Below, piece after piece: positions 49,696 to 52,600 of a stretch of 64,000 nt of DNA. A program made the translations under genes and the position numbers. Source of the stretch: Xestospongia bergquistia (Eukaryota > Porifera > Demospongiae > Haplosclerida > Petrosiidae); assembly GCA_963965975.1 (NCBI GenBank), contig OZ014420.1:770001-834000 (forward strand), written 5' to 3'. The notes beneath the pieces are model-generated. The model searched no databases and was not told the origin of the DNA. It worked only from the letters and a program-made list of their open reading frames with translations. Within the stretch, counting starts at the first letter, position 1. Each line of letters begins with the position of its first letter.

Positions 49696-52600
49696 ATGGA
49701 AACTCAAACATACGAAGAAAGACAGGAAGATGAGCTAGAATTCTTGCAGTTTGTGTTTATGAACGATTTTGAAGATTTAAGAAAAAAAGACTCGTGGAAA
49801 GTTGGTGACAATATGTCCATACAATTTAGATCTAGCATTATGAAAAAACAATAAATGTCATCACTTACAAATATACAAACTTTCTCTTTGTGTTTTGGTT
49901 CTTGCCTAAAGTTTGATTATATTTTATGTCAGATTCGCCGTCCACCTGAAATCCTAATAACACTAATACCTCAGAAAAGCATTACTAGAAGTGTACGAAG
50001 ACTCCAGGTAGGTGGTGTGTAAGAAGTATTGCCAAAGTTGTATCATCACGAGCAGTTACAAAAGTTAGATTTAAGATTTTAACTTTAATATTGCGCTATA
50101 TATGTTGTTAATTGGTTTGAACATACTAGAGAGGTTATTGATTATCATGATAAAAAGTGCCTATGTTATGTAGTCATTGGTAGTCTAGTAGCATAACTAG
50201 TTGGCTGTACTGCTTAAGTTAAGCAACATCAAATAGGATTATTACATGATGAGAGATTCCTCTACACCATAAGACTTCCTCTCTTCTTTGCCTATATAAA
50301 ACAGAGGAAGAGATTTGTTATTAGTGATCATAATGCTGTAATGTGATCTGAGTATTGGTAGACACTTTTATAAGCTTAAAACTGGCCAATCAGATTGCTT
50401 CATTCAAGTTGTGTAGCTGTTTTTTTGTCATTTTTATATTCTTATATATAATACTTGTAGGTATCCATCAAACTTCTTGCTAAATATCCTACTGATTATC
50501 CAGACAGTCCACCTGAATTAAAGTTACTGGAGCCTAACCAACTCTCAAAGGATCTAGTTGAGCAACTACTGAAGGAGATAAATGACTTAGCACAAGAGAG
50601 AGTAGGAGAAGTAAGAACAAATAAATTTAACTTTGTTTGTAAAAGTCAAATGTATTTACTGACAACAAAATTTTTGTTAGGTCATGATGTTAGAGATTGC
50701 TCAACATGTTCAAGGATTTCTTCACAAACATGATCGTCCTCCTGTGTCTCTTTATGAAGAAATGGTATATATATCTCTTTCTTTCTCACTCACACACACA
50801 CACATTCTCTCTCTTTTATTGTCATTTTGTTTATTAGGTAGAAAGGAGAGAAAAGGAAGCAGAAGAAGAAAAACAAAAGAGATTGAAAGAACAAGAAATG
50901 GAGAGGATGAAATTTGAAGAAGAGGTTGAGTTACTATTTTGCATTTGTCATACTTGTTGTAATTATAGAGAAGACAGTTTGAACAAGAGCTACAAAGAAG
51001 GAAAACAGAAATGATGGAGAAAGTCAAACAGTTGCAAGATTCTGAGGTAGCACATATATACACACACACACCACAACCACCAATTGCATTATATCAATAA
51101 CTATTAATTTAGGAAAGCAGTTCAGATGATTCAGAGTCCATTGTTTCTGATCATTTCAAACCTTCTCCTTCAGATACTGGACTCTCCAGTATGTATTTAA
51201 CAACCAGACAATCATTATCAAGTCAACTACTACAAAAGGAAGAGAAAGGGATTATAGATTTTGACACAGATAAAAGAAAAGAGATTAATTTTTTTAAAGG
51301 AAAATATTTAGGTGTGTAGGATGTATGTATTGTCTGTTGATCCATCATTTGTCCCATACATTCAATCATTCATCTATTAAATTCTCTAAAGGAGAGAGTT
51401 TAATGGGTGCCTATTCTTTGTATACCGGTATGATGTGTGATAATGGAGAACTAGTGGTAATTTATGAATGGACATTACCATGTAAAGCAACTAGAAGAGG
51501 TGATACAAGAAGAATTAAACAGGTAATGAACTATGTGTTCATCTCTGTCTGTCTGCTTGCTTGCTTGCTTCATTCACTTTCTTTTAACAGGTTGCAAGCA
51601 TAAGACAAGAATTTGATGGTTTTCTAGAGAGAGGAATTGATCATGTTAATCTTGTGAAATATCTTAGCATGCAACATGAAATGAAAGATAATAATATAGT
51701 AGTTGAGGTATTATAATAAATATAATAATATAATAGTTGAGGTATTATAATAACTATAATAATATAGTAGTTGAGGTATGACAATAACTATAATAATATA
51801 GTAGTTGAGGTATTATAATAACTATAATAATATAGTAGTTGTGGTATGATAATAAATATAATAATATAATAGTTGAGGTATGATAATAAATATAATAATA
51901 TAATAGTTGAGGTATTATAATAACTATAATAATATAGTAGTTGAGGTATTATAATAAATATAATAATATAATAGTTGAGGTATTATAATAACTATAATAA
52001 TATAATAGTTGAGGTATGATAATAACTATAATAATATAGTAGTTGAGGTATTATAATAAATATAATAATATAGTAGTTGAGGTATGATAATAAATATAAT
52101 AATATAGTAGTTGAGGTGTGATAATAACTATAATAATATAGTAGTTGAGGTATTATAATAAATATAATAATATAGTAGTTGAGGTATTATAATAACTATA
52201 ATAATATAGTAGTTGAGGTATTATAATAAATATAATAATATAATAGTTGAGGTATGATAATAAAATATTTGCTCTATTTTACAAAATTTGTTAATTAGAT
52301 TGTTATGGAACACATTAATGGGGGGAACCTAACAAGAATATTACGTAATCCAGACACAGGACCCTTTGTTGGGCAGGTTAGTACATGTTAATTCTAAATA
52401 ATTTCAAAAAGAGTAATGTATTTAAGTTAATATAATTATGTGTCATTTAAAATAGGTGTAAAATAATATTTATTTTTTAGACTTTAAAGCGTTACAGCAA
52501 ACAGCTGCTAGAGGCATTGTCTTATCTTCATTCTCAAGGGATTGTTCATAATGATATTAGGGTAAGCCTCGAAATTTAATAACATTGATTTATTATTATT

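Follow-up and report, generated by a model that had tools for sequence, protein, structure and literature searches.

The GCN2 Gene and Its Surroundings

The window, i.e., the whole 64-kb stretch of DNA analyzed here, belongs to a genome assembly of 146.5 Mb in 21 contigs and carries on its plus strand, from position 49696 onward, a gene encoding the eIF2-alpha kinase GCN2. The predicted product contains RWD and protein kinase domains (Pfam), and the top PDB match of its first 651 residues is 8t7t_A, eIF-2-alpha kinase GCN2 (E 4.8e-91), which we take to be the human protein. The gene model comprises 25 exons and 24 introns, with 3261 nt up to position 56028 and a single, terminal stop codon; this stop is provisional, and where exon 1 ends is uncertain. 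Further exons beyond 56028, read by eye, presumably correspond to the HisRS-like part of GCN2. With regard to the junction considered below, the 8t7t_A segment QDDSIVVDILVEHISGVSL aligns without a gap across the exon 9/exon 10 boundary, where NNIVVE leads into IVMEHING, and for this reason exon 9 is taken to end at NNIVVE. Intron 9, which follows, is the longest of the 24 introns (591 bp; range 44-591, median 71.5). The positions of the features are collected in Table 1.

Just upstream of GCN2, at 47366-49553, three tandem paralogous frames of ~170 codons, apparently intronless, were recognized by eye. Additionally, a neighboring gene on the minus strand encodes an OCRE domain and is presumably AGGF1; its first piece has no match to a Pfam family.

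Table 1. Coordinates of the junctions, repeat copies and exons discussed in the text (positions in the window).
Feature	Position	Strand	Description
GCN2 exon 9	51591..51707	+	Coding, phase 0, 117 nt, ends ...DNNIVVE; open frame and 8t7t_A alignment
Copy 1, authentic junction	51684..51717	+	24 exonic bases (K D N N I V V E) and 10 bases of intron 9
Authentic 5' splice site GTATTA, after GAG	51708..51713	+	6.3 bits; outscores 41% of the 34 other donors
16 intronic copies, one decoy donor each	51718..52261	+	GT at 51742 + 34n
Last copy donor GTATGA to real acceptor	52252..52298	+	Donor 9.4 bits; 47 bp; resembles the presumed pre-expansion intron (ancestry inferred)
Real 3' splice site AAATTTGTTAATTAG	52284..52298	+	8.6 bits, outside the array
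GCN2 exon 10	52299..52376	+	Begins IVMEHING; model and 8t7t_A alignment
Decoy copy of exon 24 acceptor junction	55623..55652	+	In intron 23; 27/30 identical to 55673-55702, 50 bp upstream of it, partly decayed
Authentic exon 24 acceptor junction	55673..55702	+	Downstream, outer copy; keeps the frame open
33-bp array	38286-38439	-	Abuts apparent donor AGG|GTATGT (7.3 bits) of the OCRE-domain gene
124-bp unit, three copies	42815-43190	-	Spans apparent acceptor of the OCRE-domain gene, exonic part included

A Minisatellite at the Exon 9/Intron 9 Junction

Tandem Repeats Finder reports an array at 51684-52264 with a period of 34, 17.1 copies, 93% matches and a score of 987. Cut in register, the array resolves into 17 head-to-tail 34-bp units (51684-52261, 578 bp), the first of which is the junction itself. 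The initial annotation had described a tandem array of 34-bp units, each holding the exon end and the donor and repeated about 16 times in the intron. All of this holds, with 16 intronic copies and one real junction making up the 17, and the reading frame together with the gapless 8t7t_A alignment confirms that the exon boundary falls within the unit. Its start at 51692 and its figure of 15 coding bases, on the other hand, have to be corrected, as the array begins at 51684, inside the exon, and copy 1 carries 24 exonic bases followed by 10 intronic ones. Likewise, the exonic context that it had called the same at each potential decoy donor is nearly the same: the donor GT is kept in 17/17 copies and GAG|GT in 16/17, copy 5 reading GTG|GT.

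A chance origin of the array is excluded. An 18-base junction pattern was designed to accommodate every copy of the unit; a search of the 146.5-Mb genome for exact matches returned 17, each of them inside the array, and 0 for the reversed control. At least 33 other places in the genome were retrieved by DNA search, with 65-81% identity to the array; these were taken for AT-rich repeats and, with no exact match of the junction pattern outside the array, a dispersed repeat family was set aside. An exonic nature of the array was also ruled out, with 39-42 stops in each of the three intron frames and a longest open run of 15 codons.

Seven of the 34 columns vary among the copies. Columns 2, 15 and 28 are two-state with both states common, and columns 3, 22, 26 and 30 deviate in a single copy. 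With regard to a possible higher-order repeat, mean pairwise differences among the intronic copies amount to 1.33-2.07 at lags 1-8, with the minimum at lag 7 (9 pairs). Copy 1 carries a private GAT (Asp), the place of which is taken by TAT in all 16 intronic copies. As a comparison for homogenization at the array edges, no private base occurs in the last copy, and the private base of copy 1 lies in coding sequence; the GAT may reflect either codon selection or the absence of homogenization at the edge of the array.

Decoy Donors and the Reading Frame

Donors were scored with a matrix built from the 34 other donors of GCN2, which themselves score 3.0-11.8 bits when left out one at a time; 11 of the 34, situated in the 3' portion of GCN2, were read by eye without a homology check. 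As the donor hexamer, 10 of the 17 copies have GTATTA, six GTATGA (once after GTG) and one GTGTGA. All 16 decoys score at least 6.3 bits, the score of the real donor, and seven of them score higher (6.3 bits in nine copies, 6.9 in one, 8.0 in one and 9.4 in five). In the other GCN2 introns, the real donor outscores every inner GT in 23/23 cases, the matrix having been trained on those donors. Splicing from the inner donors would give introns of 557 down to 47 bp, copies 15-17 yielding introns of 115, 81 and 47 bp. Each of donors 2-17 leads to VVEVL*, with a stop within three codons past the junction (16/16), and by reading frame donor 1 alone among the 17 keeps the frame open. Score and distance to the acceptor would favor the inner copies, whereas the reading frame would require the outer one. 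If splice sites are paired across short introns here, the inner donors should win.

Probable Growth of a Pre-existing Intron

The final 37 bases of intron 9 (52262-52298), acceptor included, are non-repeat sequence. By the acceptor matrix, which includes intron 9's own acceptor, the real acceptor reaches 8.6 bits, whereas the AGs printed for the array units lie between -0.6 and -3.1 bits and the GAG acceptors among those printed between -0.9 and -1.9 bits, with A-rich sequence upstream and no pyrimidine tract. Removal of the 16 additional units leaves a 47-bp intron (GTATGATAAT...TTAATTAG), which falls within the size range of GCN2 introns. Because the acceptor lies outside the array and an ordinary intron remains once the units are taken away, the array looks like the growth of a pre-existing intron from its own donor, and not like the birth of an intron. 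The initial annotation had proposed that the locus could capture how introns grow or how they arise through duplication across AGGT. The former proposal is supported by the 47-bp remainder; the latter is unsupported for intron 9, since such a duplication would take its new acceptor from the AG of one of the repeats.

The occurrence of Asp in 8t7t_A at the position of the copy 1 GAT, together with TAT in every intronic copy, is consistent with an array derived from the exon. The duplication may have been seeded by GATAATAA, which is common to the exon end and to the intron start within the last copy, the two occurrences lying 25 bp apart in the register of the unit; a 9-bp internal repeat added to this spacing would give 34.

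Further Junction Duplications and Array Survey

Each GCN2 intron was searched for copies of its own junctions, with 23 foreign junctions as the comparison; this was feasible for 23 of the 24 introns, intron 5 being too short. Intron 9 contains a copy of its own donor junction at 30/30 identity, against at most 17/30 for foreign junctions, and intron 23 contains a copy of its own acceptor junction at 27/30, with foreign junctions again no higher than 17/30. None of the other 21 introns tested shows an excess of own-junction matches (up to 16/30 for own and up to 21/30 for foreign junctions). Use of the decoy acceptor in intron 23 would alter the predicted product (12 versus 14 residues compared).

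Two arrays of the OCRE-domain gene also touch apparent splice junctions. Of the three copies at 42815-43190, the last alone leads into an open exon, as judged by eye. The array at 38286-38439 is weaker as a junction copy because what recurs in its units is the intronic GTATGT (3.5 bits) and not the exon end. It is in frame and stop-free for four units, such that its inner donors would add 11, 22, 33 or 44 residues. In intron 23 and in both of these arrays, the outer copy is read as the authentic one by reading frame alone.

A 34-bp segment was placed at random over the modeled part of GCN2 (at least 5 nt on each side of a junction, starts at 51742-52261 left out). Of 5778 placements, 600 would span a donor and 1200 (20.8%) a junction of either type. 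Given this density of introns, the recurrence need not mean that junctions are preferred as seeds.

The array survey covered 200 kb of contig C1 in addition to the 64-kb window (period at least 10, length at least 60) and gave 37 arrays, 16 in the window and 21 outside, some rows being parts of one cluster. Nine of the 37 rows were flagged for an outer unit that contains a splice site and has coding-like DNA outside it, namely, four in the window (19560, 38286, 42815 and 51684) and five outside, all in L021. Array 19560 was set aside, as it was read as lying inside coding sequence. Further exact copies of the splice site number 14 in 51684, one in 42815, none in 38286 and 0 or 1 in the L021 rows. 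For the coding threshold, the third-lowest score among 20 GCN2 exon ends was taken; ~5% of random 75-mers pass it. To the digit shown, it equals exon 9's own score, and the flag on 51684 is therefore not independent.

Other repeats came to light in the same sequences. Within L021, 271-903 and 9259-9911 hold 137/164-bp blocks in tandem that combine donor-like sites with coding-like DNA and may be exons repeated together with their introns. In the window, a 6-kb array of about 166 copies of a 37-bp AT-rich unit occupies 1957-8008, and a 60-bp array at 22749-23277 repeats on the minus strand a strong donor-like site around GTGGTAAGTA (about 8.4 bits), with no adjoining exon identified there. An entire 10-kb sample (L031 1-10000, C1:18700001-18710000) is a single 143-bp satellite array of 70 copies, and about two copies of 142-143-bp repeats are present in L030.

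A Probable Passive Expansion and Its Alternatives

Starting from direct observations, i.e., the array, the junction, the decoy scores, the stop codons and the acceptor outside the array, we consider it probable that this minisatellite arose by duplication of the donor junction and amplification to 17 copies, lengthening the intron from ~47 to 591 bp, and that copy 1 is the one mostly used. Specifically, a 34-bp segment over the exon 9/intron 9 donor junction would have been duplicated and then amplified through slippage or unequal exchange, so that a short existing intron grew while the outermost (5') copy stayed the authentic junction. The direction of duplication, the ancestral length and the mechanism of expansion are what we infer from the copies as they now stand, as are the choice of donor and the fate of decoy transcripts. 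Donor 1 is probably preferred in most transcripts because it is transcribed first and is the nearest to the upstream acceptor, at 117 nt. Pairing across the exon or early commitment could thus let donor 1 win and the array leave with the intron. Transcripts spliced from inner donors would stop short of the second, catalytic kinase domain and would probably be destroyed. Easy use of copy 1 is opposed by the predicted donor strengths, by the six inner GTATGA copies and by the closeness of copies 15-17 to the intron norm.

It is unlikely that the array serves as a copy-number dial on GCN2, its 16 decoys, equal to or stronger than the real donor, diverting a fixed share of transcripts to early-stop products. 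In that scenario, instability of the array would make this share vary from one individual to another, and perhaps from cell to cell. A working switch, in which decoys compete by copy number and their stop-containing products tune GCN2 output, is distinctly unlikely. Such a switch would be in agreement with the equal or greater strength of 16/16 decoys, with the early stop in every decoy product and with the downstream repeat units said to serve as donors in human IFI6 (PMC4526556). Nevertheless, the array bears no sign of selection, with three of nine donor columns variable against four of the 25 others, and comparable arrays in amphioxus reportedly leave splicing undisturbed and yield no aberrant mRNAs (PMC3087553, PMC3902484).

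Birth of the intron from repeats of an exonic AGGT segment (Rogers model) is very unlikely. GAG|GT does occur in every unit but one, removal from a GT to a later AG would formally be scarless, and tandem-duplication gains have been published for fission yeast and potato. Against this, the acceptor of intron 9 does not derive from a repeat copy, lying as it does within the non-repeat end of the intron and far outscoring the printed AGs of the units, and exon 10 starts with ATT instead of GTA. The poor context of the GAGs also makes stepwise or recursive splicing extremely improbable, although the copies, except for copy 5, are formally AG|GT junctions in the right register that could act as zero-length exons, such that the intron would be removed piecewise and excision of whole units would be harmless. 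To an assembly artifact we give equally little credence. An assembly can misjudge how many copies a 578-bp array holds, but the variation among the copies, at seven columns, follows a mixed pattern; the exact copy number is provisional.

With 17 near-identical donors facing one acceptor, the locus constitutes a natural experiment on the choice of sites by the spliceosome, and under the preferred reading of a passively expanded junction the array displays a short intron growing more than tenfold with its source still readable. Should the recurrence seen in the window extend to the whole genome, introns in this lineage would owe a real part of their length to duplicated junctions, and boundary-spanning repeats of the kind known from amphioxus would not be a lancelet peculiarity.

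Comparison With Known Systems

The human IFI6 gene (6-16, G1P3) contains, like GCN2, a minisatellite with multiple splice donors, two downstream repeat units of which are reportedly used (PMC4526556); in GCN2, by contrast, every decoy product is predicted to be truncated at once. Short tandem repeats with splice signals also form intron sequence in the fission yeast genes SPOG_01682 and SOCG_00815, where intron gain by tandem duplication involved 24-nt repeats (PMC3629103), and in the potato RdRp gene (PMC4974935). The fission yeast report gives the proto-site as AGGC and describes one case as needing more study (PMC3629103), whereas the proto-site is cited as AGGT in the report on potato (PMC4974935). 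A new intron arose in both systems, whereas in GCN2 an existing intron with its own acceptor appears to have grown. In human segmental duplications, minisatellites at boundaries (internal tandem repeats) alter exon and intron structure (PMC2812944); unlike the GCN2 array, these cases concern recent primate paralogues with transcripts.

The closest parallel is found in amphioxus, where repeats spanning exon-intron boundaries in Adh3, and likewise in globin genes at both boundary types, were named mirages (PMC3087553). Their units measure 10-72 bp in Adh3 and 150-160 bp in the globins, and one gene carries six and three units on its two haplotypes (PMC3087553). RT-PCR suggested undisturbed splicing, and a route of intron gain was proposed (PMC3087553). 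A second report added a mirage in PGBD5 and cited those in Adh and troponin C (PMC3902484). The mirages of BflGb6, BflGb9, Adh3, troponin C and PGBD5 resemble GCN2 in that tandem repeats span the exon-intron boundary, the authentic boundary is kept with extra copies beside it, and many units hold splice signals. The present case differs in gene and scale, concerning GCN2 in a 146-Mb genome with a 34-bp unit in 17 copies, and in the kind of evidence, as RT-PCR, haplotypes and the somatic instability of Adh3 were examined in amphioxus, whereas the GCN2 array is known from the sequence of one assembly. In that sequence, the unit spans the authentic boundary (frame and 8t7t_A alignment), and the authentic boundary is the outer copy with the extra copies intronic (by reading frame, not RNA), which is the anatomy that defines a mirage. 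The phenomenon is already known from amphioxus, and GCN2 is a clear further example of it in a non-lancelet genome.
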